DNA from: Nevskia sp. | GTDB lineage: Bacteria > Pseudomonadota > Gammaproteobacteria > Nevskiales > Nevskiaceae | Reading direction: 5' to 3' | DNA length: 64,000 bases | Assembly: GCF_021732705.1 (NCBI RefSeq) | Contig: NZ_JAKFUM010000008.1 | Location: 124,001-188,000 of the forward strand | Shown here: positions 43,747-50,384 of the stretch, one piece after another | Layout of the letters: each line of letters opens with the position of its first letter | How positions within the stretch are numbered: position 1 is the stretch's first letter | Notes under the pieces: model-generated | Database searches by the model: none | What the model was told of the DNA's origin: nothing | The model's input: the letters and a program-made list of their open reading frames with translations, nothing else | Position numbers and translations under genes: made by a program

Positions 43747-43893
43747 GCGCTGAGCTGTCTGCGCTGGCGCGCGTCGCCCGGCGTGGCCGCCGCGCGAGCC
43801 GCACAAATTCTGCCCAGTCGACCGTTCGCTGCGCGCCATCCGGCGGCTGCGCGAGGTCGGCGCCCGATCACTTGAATTGCGCCCTTGCCTGCC

Positions 43894-45423
43894 ATGCGAA
43901 ACCTCGTCGTCGTCCTCGGTGACCAACTGGACGAAGCATCCGCCGCCTTCGATGGCTTCGACCCGGCGCAGGACCGCGTCTGGATGTGCGAAGCGCCGTC
44001 GGAGGCCACCTATGTCTGGAGCCACAAGACGCGCATCGCGATCTTCCTGTCGGCGATGCGGCATTTCCGCGACGTGCTGACGGCGCGTGGCTGGACGGTG
44101 GACTACCACGCCACCGGCACGCATCCCCATGCCACGCTGGCGGACGCGTTGGCCGAGTCGATTGCGGCCCGGAAGCCGAAAGGCGTGGTCGTGGTCGAGC
44201 CGGGCGAATGGCGGCTGGCACGTGATCTCGAGCGGGTCTGCGCGGAGGCCCAGCGGCCGCTGGAAGTGCGGATCGATCGGCACTTCATCACCACCGTGGC
44301 CGAGTTCACGGCGTGGATGGGCGCCCGCAAGCAGCCGCGGATGGAGCATTTCTATCGCGCCGTTCGTAGCCGCACCGGCGTGCTGATGGACGCCGATGGT
44401 CAGCCCGAGGGCGGCGAGTGGAACTACGACCACGACAACCGCGAGGCCTTCGGCAAGAACGGGCCGGGTTTCGTACCGAAGCCCGCGCGCTTCCTGCCCG
44501 ATGCGCTCACTGCCGAGGTGCTGGCGATGGTCGCCGAGCGCTATGCCGATCATCCCGGCGAGCTGCAGCATTTCGACTGGCCGGTGACGCGGGCCGATGC
44601 CCTGATCGCGCTTGAGGATTTCATCGCGCATCGCCTCGGGCCGTTCGGGCCGTTCGAGGACGCGGTGTGGGATACCGAGCCGCTGCTGTATCACTCGCGG
44701 CTGTCCGCGGCGATGAACCTGAAGCTGCTGAACCCGCGCGAGGTGATCGACGCGGCGATTGCGGCGTATCACGCGAAGCAGGCGCCGATTGCCAGTGTCG
44801 AGGGCTTCGTGCGGCAGATCATCGGCTGGCGCGAGTACGTGCGCGGCCTGTACTGGTGGCACATGCCGCAGTACCTCGACGACAACGCGCTCGACGCGCA
44901 GCAGGATCTGCCGAAGCTGTACTGGACCGGCGATACCGAGATGAACTGCCTGAAGCATGTCGTGCGCGACACGCTGGCCCACGGCTACGCGCATCACATC
45001 CAGCGGCTGATGATCACCGGCCTGTTCGCGCTGCTGTTCGGGGTGAAGCCAAAGGCGGTGCACGCCTGGTATCTCGCGGTCTATGTCGACGCCGTGGAGT
45101 GGGTCGAAGTGCCGAACACCATCGGCATGAGCCAGTTCGCCGACGGTGGCCTGATGGGCTCCAAGCCGTACATCGCCAGCGGCAAGTACATCGACAAGAT
45201 GACGAACTACTGCAAGGGCTGCCGCTTCGACCCTGCGGTGAGCACCGGCCCAAAGGCCTGTCCGTTCACGACCCTGTACTGGGATTTCCTAGATCGCCAC
45301 CGCGAGCGCTTCGCCGGCCATCCCCGGCTGGTGATGCAGGTGCGCAACCTCGAGCGGCTGAAGCCCGATGCGGTGGCCGCGATCCGGCGCGAGGCCGAGG
45401 GGCTGCGCCGCACGCTGGTCTGA
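43894..45423 (+). CDS. phrB: Fe-S bacterial cryptochrome/(6-4)-photolyase family protein
   Basis: A 509-residue protein opening MRNLVVVLGDQLDEASAAFDGF, characteristic of the FeS-BCP group (PhrB/CryB). The C-terminal FAD domain has GFVRQIIGWREYVRGLYWW at about 305, then WTGDTEMNCLKHVV and the NYCKGC and PKACPF pair, giving four Cys for a [4Fe-4S] cluster. These enzymes repair (6-4) photoproducts using blue light, or act as photoreceptors. ATG 43894 gives the normal start; a TTG three codons upstream is the only alternative. The DUF2256 gene precedes it. Confidence 0.93.
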   Translation: MRNLVVVLGDQLDEASAAFDGFDPAQDRVWMCEAPSEATYVWSHKTRIAIFLSAMRHFRDVLTARGWTVDYHATGTHPHATLADALAESIAARKPKGVVVVEPGEWRLARDLERVCAEAQRPLEVRIDRHFITTVAEFTAWMGARKQPRMEHFYRAVRSRTGVLMDADGQPEGGEWNYDHDNREAFGKNGPGFVPKPARFLPDALTAEVLAMVAERYADHPGELQHFDWPVTRADALIALEDFIAHRLGPFGPFEDAVWDTEPLLYHSRLSAAMNLKLLNPREVIDAAIAAYHAKQAPIASVEGFVRQIIGWREYVRGLYWWHMPQYLDDNALDAQQDLPKLYWTGDTEMNCLKHVVRDTLAHGYAHHIQRLMITGLFALLFGVKPKAVHAWYLAVYVDAVEWVEVPNTIGMSQFADGGLMGSKPYIASGKYIDKMTNYCKGCRFDPAVSTGPKACPFTTLYWDFLDRHRERFAGHPRLVMQVRNLERLKPDAVAAIRREAEGLRRTLV

Positions 45424-46490: not shown

Positions 46491-46514
46491 CTGTTGACAC
46501 TGTTACGTTAACAG
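46491..46514 (+). promoter_or_regulatory. Candidate TetR operator/promoter of the SOI-like operon
   Basis: CTGTTGAC and GTTAACAG form a near-perfect inverted repeat (one mismatch) around ACTGTTAC; nested inside is TGTTA-CGT-TAACA, a perfect inverted repeat. The left arm includes TTGACA at 46494-46499, a consensus -35 box, so repressor binding would occlude the promoter. It ends 15 bases before the regulator start. Confidence 0.6.
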
Positions 46515-46529
46515 CGTCAGCATGTGGGC

Positions 46530-47279
46530 ATGGCTCGAAACCGACAGTCCGACGACGTGCGCGCGAAGAAGCGCGACGACATTCTCGACAGCGCGATGGC
46601 GGTGTTCGAGAAGCACGGCGGTCTGGAAGCGCTGAGCTTCCGCCGGCTGGCCACCGAGATGGACCTGAGCTACTCGGCGCCGTACCGCTACTTCGCCGAC
46701 AAGGATGAGCTGGTCAACGCGCTGCGGGCGCGCGCGTTCCGCTGGATCGAGCAGGCGATGCGCGACGCCATCGCCGGGATCGACGATCCCGAAGCGCAGC
46801 TCGAAGCGCTGGCCGCGGCCTACATCCGCAGCGGCATCGAGCGGCCGGATCGCTACGCGCTGATGTTCTTCAAGCTCGACGACACCGACATCGCCCGCCG
46901 CTCGATCGAGCTGAAAGCCGCGCGCCGCGACGCGCTGGATGTCTGCCGACAGGCGATCGCCGCCGGCCAGGCCTGCGGCCAGCTGCCGGACCGGGTTGAT
47001 CCGCTGACCGCCGCGCACCTGTTCTGGATTGGCGCGCATGGCCTGGTCTCGCTGCAGGTCGCCGGCCAGTTCGTCATGGGCCGCGACCTGCCGGTGCTGG
47101 TCCCGACCCTGATCCGCTGCCTGCGGGCCGGACTTGAACATTTCGACGAGACGCCGGCCACACGGCGCGCATCCGTCAACGAGGAGAGCCTCCATGTCGC
47201 AAACCCTGACACCGCCGGCCGCCGCCCATCCGATCCCTCAGCCGACGCCAAGACGCATCCCGTTCGAATTCCCCGATGA
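46530..47279 (+). CDS. TetR/AcrR-family transcriptional regulator
   Basis: A 249-residue protein with an N-terminal helix-turn-helix (RDDILDSAMAVFEKHGGLEALSFRRLATEMDLSYSAPYRYFADKDEL, residues about 16-62) and a ligand-binding C-terminal domain of the WHG-type (HLFWIGAHGLVSLQVAGQF). It probably represses its own operon through the operator at 46491-46514. The last 28 codons overlap the start of the next gene in another frame, an unusually long 86-base overlap, so the extreme C-terminus could be non-essential. It is the first gene of the four-gene set to 49126. Confidence 0.9.
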   Translation: MARNRQSDDVRAKKRDDILDSAMAVFEKHGGLEALSFRRLATEMDLSYSAPYRYFADKDELVNALRARAFRWIEQAMRDAIAGIDDPEAQLEALAAAYIRSGIERPDRYALMFFKLDDTDIARRSIELKAARRDALDVCRQAIAAGQACGQLPDRVDPLTAAHLFWIGAHGLVSLQVAGQFVMGRDLPVLVPTLIRCLRAGLEHFDETPATRRASVNEESLHVANPDTAGRRPSDPSADAKTHPVRIPR

Positions 47280-48135
47280 CCTGAACCCGCAGTGGAAGCC
47301 GGACGATCCCGAGTTCTCGGCGATGGTCAACGGCGCCTCGCTGGTGATGCCGTATCTGGAGCCGTTCCTGATCCGCACCGTGCGCGAAGCGCTGCCGCAG
47401 ATCGGCGACCCGGAAGTGGCCGACAGCGGCCGCGCGTTCAACACGCAGGAACAGCATCACTATCAGGCGCATCGCCGCTTCAACGAGCTGCTGAAGCGCA
47501 GCCGTTATCCGGAGCTGACGGAGATCGAAGCCGACATGGCCGCGTCTTACGCGCGGCTGGCCAAGCGCTCGCTGCGCACGCGCATGGCCTACACCGCCGG
47601 CTTCGAAGCGATGACCCTCGGCGTCACCCGCTGGCTGGTGGAATCCCGGCAGCAGTTGTTTGGCGGCTCCGATACCCGCGTGGCCTCGTTCATCCTCTGG
47701 CACTTCGTCGAGGAATCCGAGCACAAGTGCGTGGCCCACGACGTCTATCAGGCGCTGTACGGCGGTGGCCTCGGCAGCTATCTGGTGCGTGCGCGCGGCG
47801 TGCTGCACGGCTCGCTCGACGTGATGTGGTATTCGATGCGCGGCTACCGGTTGATCCTGAAGAAAGAAGGCCTGTGGTACCGGCTGTCGTCGCGCCTGCG
47901 GCTCGCCCGCCGCCTTGGCAGCTTCGTTCGCCACGTCGGCCCGTACCTGCTGCGCGCCATGCTGCCCGGCCACGATCCCCGCGAGGAAGCGAATCCGGTC
48001 TGGGTCGATGACTGGATCGCCGGCCATGCCGCCACCGGCGACGACCAGGTACCGCTGCTCGACACCCGGCATCCGGACATCCCGGTGCCGTTTGCAAGCC
48101 GAGCATCGATTGCCCCCGACGGGCTGCCTGCGTGA
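47194..48135 (+). CDS. PF10118-type metal-dependent protein with a ferritin-like diiron motif set
   Basis: A 313-residue protein of the family annotated metal-dependent hydrolase (PF10118). In the sequence I see Glu56 (PYLEPF), E86-Q-H-H89 (QEQHHYQAH), Glu138 (GFEAMTLG) and E174-S-E-H177 (VEESEHKCVAHD). This is the E, ExxH, E, ExxH ligand order of four-helix-bundle diiron oxygenases, so a carboxylate-bridged diiron centre is likely. The hydrolase label may therefore be misleading. GAGGAGAG precedes ATG 47194. Its stop overlaps the next GTG by four bases (GTGA), tying it to two SOI-like membrane proteins. Chemistry is unknown; hydroxylation or epoxidation is an inference. Confidence 0.75.
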   Translation: MSQTLTPPAAAHPIPQPTPRRIPFEFPDDLNPQWKPDDPEFSAMVNGASLVMPYLEPFLIRTVREALPQIGDPEVADSGRAFNTQEQHHYQAHRRFNELLKRSRYPELTEIEADMAASYARLAKRSLRTRMAYTAGFEAMTLGVTRWLVESRQQLFGGSDTRVASFILWHFVEESEHKCVAHDVYQALYGGGLGSYLVRARGVLHGSLDVMWYSMRGYRLILKKEGLWYRLSSRLRLARRLGSFVRHVGPYLLRAMLPGHDPREEANPVWVDDWIAGHAATGDDQVPLLDTRHPDIPVPFASRASIAPDGLPA

Positions 48136-48623
48136 CGCCGACGGATGACCTGAAGCCGCTGCGCCGCCTGCTGATCGGCCACGGCGCCCTGCTGCTCTTC
48201 ACCGGCGGCGTGATCGGCTTCGGCTTCCTGTTCCACCTGATCGGCGCGATCAAGCTGTGGCCGTTTCCGGGCGTGATCGACTTCCAGATGCCCGGCAGCT
48301 ACAAGGCCTGGCGCATGTCGCATCTGGAAGCGCTGATGAACGGCTCGATCATCTGGTTGATCGCCGCACTGCTGCCGCATCTGCCGTTCACCATCGCCGG
48401 CCTGCGTCGCATCACGTGGGGGATCATCGTCACCGGATGGACGCTCGTGGCAGGCTCGATGTGCGATGCGCTGTTTCCCGACAGCCGCGGGCTGGCCGCC
48501 AATTCGGTACTGACCAACAACATCGCGTTCGGGCTGTTCTACATCGGCATCCTGATCGTCATGGCGATCCTCGCGCTGATCGCGTGGCGTTCGCTGCGCC
48601 CCGAGCCGCCATCGTCGTCATGA
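48132..48623 (+). CDS. Styrene-oxide-isomerase-like membrane protein, copy 1
   Basis: A 163-residue protein with four helices. It resembles StyC: HGALLLFTGG near the N-terminus, the PGSYKAW loop, then H64-LEALM-N70-G, matching StyC His58/Asn64 spacing (His as haem ligand, Asn in the active site, by recall of the StyC structure). The later StyC Asp/Tyr pair is not conserved (VTGWTLVAGS), so true epoxide isomerase activity is not assured. The GTG start overlaps the upstream diiron-like gene and the stop overlaps the next ATG. Confidence 0.6.
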   Translation: MTPTDDLKPLRRLLIGHGALLLFTGGVIGFGFLFHLIGAIKLWPFPGVIDFQMPGSYKAWRMSHLEALMNGSIIWLIAALLPHLPFTIAGLRRITWGIIVTGWTLVAGSMCDALFPDSRGLAANSVLTNNIAFGLFYIGILIVMAILALIAWRSLRPEPPSSS

Positions 48624-49126
48624 GCCCAGCCCTGCTGACACCTGCCGAGCGCGGCCGTCTGATCCTGCTGATGCATGGGGCTGCGATCGGCGTGATCGGG
48701 CTGGTCTCCGGCTTCGGGCTGGTGTTCTCGATTCTCGACGCCTGGCATGTCTGGCCGCTGACCTTGCCGATCCACCTGCCGGTGCCCGGCAGCGAGCACG
48801 GCTGGCGTGTCGCGCATGTCGCCGGCGTGCTCAACGGCATGCTGATGATGCTCGGCGGCCTGGCACTGGTGCCGACGGCACCCGGTCCGAGCGCGCAGCG
48901 CTGGATCGTCGGCGGGTTGGTCTGGACCGGCTGGGGCAATACCGTGTTCTTCCACCTGGCCAACGTCTCGAGCAACCGTGCGCTGTCAGCCGGCAGCACG
49001 CGACTCGGCGAGGCCGATGCGGCCGGCATGCTCGGCTACCTGATCGGCGCGAGCACCATTCCGTTCACCATCGTGGCGCTGGCGCTGCTCGGTCTGGCCG
49101 CCGCGCGCCAGCTTCGGCCGCGCTGA
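48620..49126 (+). CDS. Styrene-oxide-isomerase-like membrane protein, copy 2
   Basis: A 168-residue four-helix protein, closer to StyC than copy 1: PVPGSEHGWRVAHVAGVLNG (H66 and N72 in the same HxxxxxN spacing) and WGNTVFFHLANVSSNRALS, which mirrors the StyC FSPNRGLS turn. The StyC Asp95 and Tyr103 positions read Thr and Phe here. It overlaps copy 1 by four bases (ATGA), so the pair is translated together and may form a heteromer. The haem-binding His suggests a haem-b membrane protein. Convergent with the diguanylate cyclase gene. Confidence 0.68.
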   Translation: MSPALLTPAERGRLILLMHGAAIGVIGLVSGFGLVFSILDAWHVWPLTLPIHLPVPGSEHGWRVAHVAGVLNGMLMMLGGLALVPTAPGPSAQRWIVGGLVWTGWGNTVFFHLANVSSNRALSAGSTRLGEADAAGMLGYLIGASTIPFTIVALALLGLAAARQLRPR

Positions 49127-49142: not shown

Positions 49143-50384
49143 TCAAGCGGCGAGACCGCCGTCGCCATTGCCGTCGGACGGCGCGGCCCGATCCGACAAC
49201 GGTTTCGACGCCGTCACCGTACCGCCGACGCTGCGCAGCCGCCGCCGATGCAGCGCTTCCGACCACTCGCGCACCACCATCTGGCTGCCGCCGATGCGCT
49301 TGACCAGCATCGACAGCGCATCGGCCCGCTGGATCAGCTCGTCCTGCTGCAGCCAGGGGCCGGGACGGCGCACGATCATCACGCCGAGCGAGGCCGAGGT
49401 GCGGGCGACGCCGGCCGCGCCTTCGCCGAACTGCAGCGAGATGTCGCGCGTGGCCTCGTGCAGCGACTCGGCGATGCGGTACAGATCCTCGATCTCCGGC
49501 GCCACGCAGATCACCGCGAACTCGTCGCCGCCGAGTCGGGCCACGACATCGGTGCTGCGCCGCGCGACCGACTGCAGCCGCCGCCCGACTTCGCACAGCG
49601 CGGCATCGCCGGCCTCGTGGCCGAAGGCGTCGTTGATCGGCTTGAACTTGTCGAGATCGAGCATCATCACGGCCAGATGCTGGCTTTCGCGCCAGGCAAT
49701 GTGGATCGCGGCTTCAAGGCCCTGATGCATGCCGCGGCGATTGGCGAGCCCGGTCAGCGAATCGGTCGTGGCCAGGGTCTTCAGCGTCAGCTGCGCGACG
49801 AACTGCGTGCGCTGCGACAGGTTGATCCAGTAGCGGCCGGCAAGGCCGATGGCATTGATCGCGGCCATCACGAACGCCGCCCGGGCGATGGCGACGGTGC
49901 TGGCACCCGCCGTCATCGAGATCGCCAGTGGCAGCCCCATGCCGATCACCAGCCCGGCCACCGCGGCCGTGCGCTGCGTGAGCCCGGCGAACAGGTAGCA
50001 GAACGCCAGCTGCACGATGACGAATTCCTGCATGTACGGCTCGTTGTCGCCGGGCAGGGTGTGCAGCGCGCTCAGCACCACCCACATCAGCCCGTTGACC
50101 GCGACCAGAAGGCCGCGCAGGTGCTCGCCGGGCGCTGGCGCACCGCGCACCATGCGGATGGTCAGCACCACGCACTGCAGCAGCACGAAGCCGACGGCGC
50201 CATTGACCGCAGACCACGCGAAGCGCCCTTCGAACAGGAAATGCTCGGCCAGCAGTGCGAGCGCGAACATCAGGCAGCCGCTCAGGTACGACGCGCGCAG
50301 CATCCGCTGGTTTTCGCTTTCGGTGAACGCCCGAAAGCGCGCGCTGATTTCGCTGGTCACTGCGGCATCGCCGGACTCGATCAC
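49143..50384 (-). CDS. Membrane-bound diguanylate cyclase (GGDEF)
   Basis: A 413-residue protein. About six helices occupy residues 30-195 (for example YLSGCLMFALALLAEHFLF and LLVAVNGLMWVVLSAL), followed by a GGDEF domain with DSLTGLANRRGMHQGLEAA, DLDKFKPINDAFGHEAGD and RLGGDEFAVICV (intact catalytic site). The RxxD inhibitory I-site is not obvious. It makes c-di-GMP in response to a membrane signal. The start is GTG 50384 with no good ribosome site, so a later start within the first 30 residues is possible. No c-di-GMP effector is adjacent. Confidence 0.88.
   Translation of the reverse strand: MIESGDAAVTSEISARFRAFTESENQRMLRASYLSGCLMFALALLAEHFLFEGRFAWSAVNGAVGFVLLQCVVLTIRMVRGAPAPGEHLRGLLVAVNGLMWVVLSALHTLPGDNEPYMQEFVIVQLAFCYLFAGLTQRTAAVAGLVIGMGLPLAISMTAGASTVAIARAAFVMAAINAIGLAGRYWINLSQRTQFVAQLTLKTLATTDSLTGLANRRGMHQGLEAAIHIAWRESQHLAVMMLDLDKFKPINDAFGHEAGDAALCEVGRRLQSVARRSTDVVARLGGDEFAVICVAPEIEDLYRIAESLHEATRDISLQFGEGAAGVARTSASLGVMIVRRPGPWLQQDELIQRADALSMLVKRIGGSQMVVREWSEALHRRRLRSVGGTVTASKPLSDRAAPSDGNGDGGLAA

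Follow-up and report, generated by a model that had tools for sequence, protein, structure and literature searches.

A recurring gene pair of family PF10118 and styrene-oxide-isomerase-like membrane proteins as a possible oxidation and rearrangement module

Background

The locus described here raises the question of what a protein whose family is named a hydrolase does beside two membrane proteins that resemble an epoxide isomerase. It lies in a 64,000-nucleotide stretch of Nevskia sp. DNA (contig NZ_JAKFUM010000008.1, positions 124,001 to 188,000), which is called the window below and whose coordinates are used throughout. Four window genes encode a TetR-family regulator (P0001), a protein of Pfam family PF10118 (P0002) and two membrane proteins, A and B (P0003 and P0004), that resemble styrene oxide isomerase (SOI, StyC). 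We find that the association of PF10118 and SOI-family genes is non-random, that PF10118 probably belongs to the ferritin-like diiron oxygenases as a distant branch, and that P0003 is related to SOI but has a rebuilt pocket. A two-step module, in which PF10118 would oxygenate a hydrophobic alkene and the SOI-like haem proteins would rearrange the product, is the reading that we favour, at about even odds.

According to passages of a 2024 structure paper, SOI and PenF are the only enzymes reported to catalyse the Meinwald rearrangement; in SOI, H58 binds haem b, the change of N64 or D95 to Ala impaired the enzyme, and the change of N99 or Y103 to Ala inactivated it (PMC11374702). No published function for PF10118 was found in the open-licence literature, as far as its passages reach, and one passage there names the family as a hydrolase. 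The original prediction for this locus, made from the sequence, knew of no described system of this composition; likewise, the open-licence literature searched gave us none in which SOI goes with a metal-dependent hydrolase, or a diiron protein with an epoxide isomerase.

Pairing of PF10118 and SOI-family genes

P0002 (313 residues, 47194-48135, + strand) is followed by P0003 (163 residues, 48132-48623, +) and P0004 (168 residues, 48620-49126, +). The original prediction had described four stacked genes with GTGA/ATGA overlaps. The gene set was recovered as described, and the 4-base stop/start overlaps were present at PF10118/P0003 (GTGA) and P0003/P0004 (ATGA), but the TetR frame and the PF10118 start overlap by 86 bases instead.

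The StyC profile of NCBIfam (NF045734) gives 58.8 bits for P0003 and 78.9 bits for P0004, both far below its cut-off of 150 bits. In the window's genome it matches four places. Two are P0003 and P0004, the third is separated by 150 bases from a further, oppositely oriented PF10118 gene, and the fourth lies about 2 kb from a third PF10118 gene. A second, divergent SOI/PF10118 pair of this genome (L069:7968-9448, G000:C6:332691-334006) has a neighbourhood common to several genomes of the genus.

In 61 related genomes the profile matches 91 places, 25 over and 66 under the cut-off. The sub-cutoff set comprises 63 distinct proteins, the window's own two having been left out of the 66 places, and 41 of them have a PF10118 gene within 1.5 kb. 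The corresponding count is 0 of 24 for the over-cutoff rows, which hold 23 genes (23 of the 25 places were examined, G010:C8 and G014:C13 being left out, and one gene stands as both L099 and L119). The chance of finding PF10118 within 1.5 kb, calculated from 262 PF10118 matches, averages 0.45% per gene, with a maximum of 1.9%.

Named genomes were scanned for the P0003 type, yielding 56 loci from Pseudomonadota, Actinomycetota, Binatota and Myxococcota. These were found via P0003-type patterns; some of the assemblies are also among the 61 relatives (e.g. L121-L124), and two pairs of loci share an assembly. PF10118 is present in 51 of the 56, directly upstream on the same strand in 48 and divergent in 3. 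The five loci without it are L129, two from mycobacteria (L143 and L155), L166, and L175, which is on a short contig. Random association, which had been named as the outcome that would speak against the original prediction, is therefore not what these counts show.

The reverse search found 23 P0002-like genes in 21 of the 61 related genomes, and 21 of the 23 adjoin an SOI-family gene (compared by hand). One of the remaining two is at a contig end (G029) and the other is in G038. On another contig of G038 (L057:8415-8804, G038:C12) there is a P0003-type gene that is apparently damaged, possibly a case of module decay.

A set of 137 SOI-family rows was compiled for further comparison, excluding L001-L040, L121-L124 and L180-L188 as well as SOI matches of up to 100 positions and PF10118 matches of up to 200; one gene is entered twice (L099/L119). 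Because short matches were excluded, truncated contigs such as L050 count as lacking PF10118. Of these rows 87 have PF10118 within 1.5 kb. The 87 close pairs include 69 on one strand, with PF10118 upstream in 67, and a 4-base stop/start overlap occurs in 17 of 54 tested pairs. The distances of the PF10118 proteins correlate with those of their SOI partners (Mantel r 0.52, none of 2000 permutations as high), shared ancestry not having been removed from this value. Fusions of PF10118 with SOI were sought as linking evidence and none was present among the frames of the loci scanned.

Searching 398 genomes of the phylum with an SOI-family profile gave a match in 6, three of these weak. Plasmid records were considered as an annotated source and rejected: there were 7, with five annotated as StyC, one as a hypothetical protein and one without annotation.

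The PF10118 protein

P0002 matches PF10118 (Metal_hydrol) with E 9e-51 and 173.4 bits, the gathering score being 33.2. Its predicted model has a predicted local distance difference test score (pLDDT) of 94.3 and is a ferritin-like four-helix bundle with helices at residues 39-69, 73-103, 127-150 and 161-189. The original prediction had named E56, E86, H89, E138, E174 and H177 as the complete ligand order of a ferritin-like diiron oxygenase and proposed structure prediction as a check. The residues are correctly placed, and in the model E56, E86/H89, E138 and E174/H177 sit near the middles of the four long helices, as in ferritin-like diiron enzymes. From these helix positions we infer that the ligands converge at one site.

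We aligned 60 PF10118 proteins, some of them only 23-27% identical to P0002. E56, Q85, E86, H89, E138, H170, E173, E174, E176 and H177 are invariant in all 60, giving P0002 the motifs QExxH at 85-89 and HxxEExxH at 170-177. A 2025 paper that aligned CylC halogenases to AurF describes, in the passages available, nine active-site residues, seven of which fall in QExxH and HxxDExxH, and a three-His site (PMC12101540). The AurF/CylC set taken from these passages (Glu, (D/Q)ExxH, Glu, HxxDExxH) is present in P0002 with Glu for Asp at 173, as judged from motifs and not by superposition. H170 is likely the third His ligand, since the HxxEExxH sequence matches the published three-His motif. The predicted ligand order thus stands on the model and the invariant motif, refined from a plain two-His set to the AurF/CylC kind.

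With the model as query, Foldseek returned 238 PDB matches at E <= 10. The first was the diiron oxygenase CmlI (probability 1.00), and the best 50 of the 238 are all ferritin-like, including CmlI, R2 proteins, R2lox, stearoyl-ACP desaturase and aldehyde-deformylating oxygenase. The AurF profile (PF11583) matched ten weak places in 41 genomes (E 1e-4 to 9e-4), and all ten are PF10118 genes. When the 60 PF10118 proteins were scanned against Pfam, the next families after PF10118 were AurF, matched by 3 members with a best E of 0.0025, and rubrerythrin, matched by 2 with 0.024. On the strength of the predicted fold and these relationships, PF10118 probably belongs with the ferritin-like diiron oxygenases, among which it would form a distant branch; AurF proper is not reached by score.

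The SOI-like membrane proteins

In sequence, P0003 matches the solved SOI chains with E 1.2e-12 and 1.5e-11. Its model (pLDDT 95.0) fits the SOI structure 8pnu with template-modelling (TM) scores of 0.79/0.82 and E 4.2e-8, which supports an SOI fold for P0003, and with the profile matches to both proteins agrees with the likeness originally proposed. P0004 is placed as SOI-like from its StyC profile match.

The equivalents of SOI H58 and N64 are H64/N70 in P0003 and H66/N72 in P0004, as originally named. All 137 rows retain the haem His, the only column that is fully His, and 132 retain Asn64. At SOI H58, N64, D95, N99 and Y103, P0003 has H,N,T,L,S and P0004 H,N,T,N,F. Both have thus lost the StyC Asp and Tyr, as had been noticed, and to this can be added that P0003 also lacks Asn99 and that P0004 keeps it. 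Clade C, the divergent PF10118-paired SOI type of the window's genome, has H,N,A,N,Y at these positions, and clade D has H,N,x,N,Y.

The P0003 type was at first chosen by residues E66 and S/A109, which is circular, so the residues were recounted on 60 rows picked from the tree; these are three groups under an unresolved fork and not one supported clade. M62, H64, E66 and N129 are fixed in the 60, N70 is kept in 59, S109 in 58 and D112 in 57. From the lost Asp95, Asn99 and Tyr103 together with these fixed residues of its own, it follows that P0003 is not StyC but a relative of SOI whose pocket has been rebuilt (Glu66, Ser109, Asp112).

Partners of other SOI-family genes

Six of the 8 StyC-group rows are near StyA/StyB (L105 and L106 are not). 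Among the 16 rows of the over-cutoff sister group, 8 are beside an FMO-like flavoprotein gene and 5 near an AlkB-like gene, with L116 and L119/L099 near neither. The AlkB-like partner belongs to PF00487 and matches alkane 1-monooxygenase of the PDB with E 9e-22. At L082:6202-9998 an SOI-family gene lies inside a soluble diiron monooxygenase operon of the methane/phenol/alkene type, in the order PF02332, SOI, MmoB, PF02332. The mycobacterial P0003-type genes of L143 and L155, which have no PF10118, adjoin that FMO-like flavoprotein instead (57% identity). The clade-C gene of L076 has a flavin reductase on one side and on the other a protein that gives only a weak NAD(P)-binding match; its sister in the same genome, L074, has PF10118. 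Because other SOI-family genes adjoin StyA/B, AlkB-like, soluble-diiron or flavoprotein genes, PF10118 seems to take the place held elsewhere by an oxygenase.

Two side observations concern these partners. The AlkB-linked SOI proteins (L098:8031-8510, L058, L100, L112, L115) and the FMO-linked ones (L108-L111, L113, L114, L117, L118) are over the StyC cut-off and lack Asp95; they would be named StyC though their substrate probably differs. Furthermore, an uncharacterised flavoprotein-like family stands beside SOI-family genes in gammaproteobacteria and mycobacteria (L155:4456-5799, L143:397-1761).

Regulation and flanking genes

The regulator P0001 (46530-47279, +, alternative GTG start at 46524) carries the Pfam domains TetR_N (PF00440) and TetR_C_33 (PF13305). 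An imperfect 23-base palindrome, GACACTGTTACGTTAACAGCGTC, lies 5' of it at 46496-46518 (no strand assigned) and is a likely TetR operator. Related operons have sites like its core 5' of TetR: 21 of 36 regions hold one that is equalled by no more than 1% of shuffles, and 16 of 29 do so once 7 second copies of the same contig are dropped (recounted by hand). A regulator gene is often near the PF10118/SOI pair, its type varying between TetR, AraC, MEDS/MerR-like and PadR. A promoter scan yielded nothing useful.

Upstream of the operon is a photolyase-related PF04244 gene (43885-45420), and downstream, on the opposite strand, a GGDEF protein gene (49146-50384). Neither has an evident link to the operon.

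Discussion

The two-step module can be pictured as follows. The substrate would be hydrophobic, probably unsaturated, and located in or near the membrane, and TetR may repress its own operon at the palindrome until released by substrate or product. PF10118, predicted from fold, motif and weak profile matches to be an AurF/CylC-type ferritin-like diiron oxygenase, would carry two irons and oxygenate the substrate, in the simplest case converting an alkene to an epoxide. By homology, the SOI-like proteins would hold haem b on the conserved His, and this haem could act as a Lewis acid, rearranging the PF10118 product to a carbonyl compound. P0004 appears the better candidate isomerase, as it keeps His, Asn64 and Asn99. 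For P0003, the type paired with PF10118 in most genomes, the rebuilt pocket points to another substrate or rearrangement, or else to a supporting role.

A number of results weigh against this picture. On the oxygenase side, Foldseek gave no PDB match for P0002 at E <= 0.001, the best (CmlI) having E 0.038 and TM 0.44-0.47. The PF10118 profile found chance matches only among PDB sequences, and its comparison with R2 proteins gave nothing, the R2 alignment being too uniform for a fair test. The AurF matches are below cut-off (best 21.9 bits, gathering score 29.6) and are all in PF10118 paralogues; P0002 itself has no AurF match at E <= 1. On the isomerase side, P0003 lacks Asp95, Asn99 and Tyr103. 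According to the passages cited above, Ala at the latter two inactivates SOI and Ala at the first impairs it (PMC11374702), which counts against a plain epoxide isomerase, as does the type's own Glu66, two residues past the haem His in 60 of 60 rows. With regard to the neighbourhoods, 22 of the 63 sub-cutoff proteins have no PF10118 within 1.5 kb, and for 27 of the 137 rows there is no PF10118 within 1.5 kb and none of the listed partners within 5 kb. The flavoprotein partners match known oxygenases only weakly and are for this reason no more than suggestive. Finally, the examined neighbourhoods have neither a carbonyl-using enzyme nor an electron donor in common. A constant third enzyme near the pair was rejected in a survey based on our own, rough gene calls, in which the largest recurring groups were regulators, with acyl-CoA genes scattered.

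Of the alternatives, the one that survives best is that the P0003 type rearranges nothing but serves PF10118 as a membrane partner, haem-bearing or structural, by anchoring it, feeding it substrate or passing it electrons, the isomerase step, if any, being left to P0004-like or full-site SOI proteins. It would explain why the type has lost the SOI catalytic network and tracks PF10118 closely (53 of 60 rows), and in the window, L138 and L144 the P0003 type indeed adjoins another SOI protein in which the site is better preserved (H,N,T,N,F and H,N,I,N,Y). We nevertheless consider it unlikely. Clade-D SOI proteins, in which Asn99 and Tyr103 are retained, are instead the partners of PF10118 proteins with 67-69% identity to P0002, and two mycobacterial P0003-type genes have no PF10118 nearby. 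A single His is fully conserved in the SOI family, so P0003 as a bis-His cytochrome was rejected.

It is also conceivable, yet improbable, that PF10118 is a diiron oxygenase but yields something other than an epoxide (by hydroxylation, hydroperoxide formation, or the N-oxygenation or halogenation known from AurF/CylC relatives), and that the SOI-like proteins do a different haem chemistry. SOI-family genes repeatedly adjoin oxygenase-type genes, including StyA/StyB, a known epoxidase pair, and this speaks for epoxidation; the closest motif relatives of PF10118 are N-oxygenases and halogenases, and the P0003 pocket is unlike that of SOI, both of which speak for the alternative.

We give very little credence to PF10118 as a metal-dependent hydrolase acting on a substrate or product of the SOI-like proteins. 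The Pfam family name is all that backs it, against a ferritin-like model, an AurF/CylC-like motif and the AurF profile matches; on these grounds the hydrolase label was rejected, and PF10118 is probably not a hydrolase as named. Neighbourhood by chance or by shared descent of the region, with no joint function, is scarcely credible: within the genus, clade-C pairs have the same fixed neighbourhood and are thereby not independent, but pairs of the P0003 type are found in four phyla, between flanks that differ, and 41 of 63 compares with about 0.5% expected.

The two-step module makes predictions that are cheap to test, namely that the membrane proteins bind haem and that the PF10118 protein binds two iron atoms. 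If it is true, a function would be gained for PF10118, which is named a hydrolase and was found in 56 of the 61 related genomes searched, and with it a new branch of the AurF/CylC group. SOI would become a family with several natural partners and pocket types, and a source of new epoxide-rearranging catalysts. Recurrence of the pairing in several phyla suggests an unrecognised oxidise-then-rearrange system. A more far-reaching proposal, which we put forward tentatively and rate at somewhat under even, is that PF10118 is a new branch of ferritin-like diiron oxygenases whose diverged SOI-fold partner performs, in its rebuilt pocket (Glu66, Ser109, Asp112), a haem Lewis-acid rearrangement not described for any enzyme, the SOI fold being a general second-step module for about five unrelated oxygenase kinds.

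Comparison with known systems

As in StyAB-StyC, the window operon has an oxygenase-type gene beside the gene of an SOI-fold membrane protein that keeps the haem His. It differs in having PF10118 instead of the flavoprotein StyA/StyB, and TetR control, and its SOI-like proteins, unlike StyC, are under the StyC cut-off and lack Asp95 and Tyr103.

The AlkB-like loci (L058, L098, L100, L112, L115) and L082 likewise combine an SOI-family gene with a nearby or adjacent gene of an iron oxygenase type. To our knowledge these loci correspond to no described system. Unlike the window operon, they use unrelated oxygenase families, and their SOI proteins keep Asn99 and Tyr103.

With the N-oxygenases AurF and CmlI and the halogenases CylC and NocO, as far as the passages on them describe, PF10118 shares a predicted four-helix bundle, QExxH and HxxEExxH motifs, and a Glu on each of the other helices. 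P0002 is 14% identical to CmlI and PF10118 stays under the AurF cut-off, which sets it apart from all four. It differs further from AurF and CylC in having Glu173 where the motif, as published in those passages, has Asp, and in being paired with an SOI-family gene.

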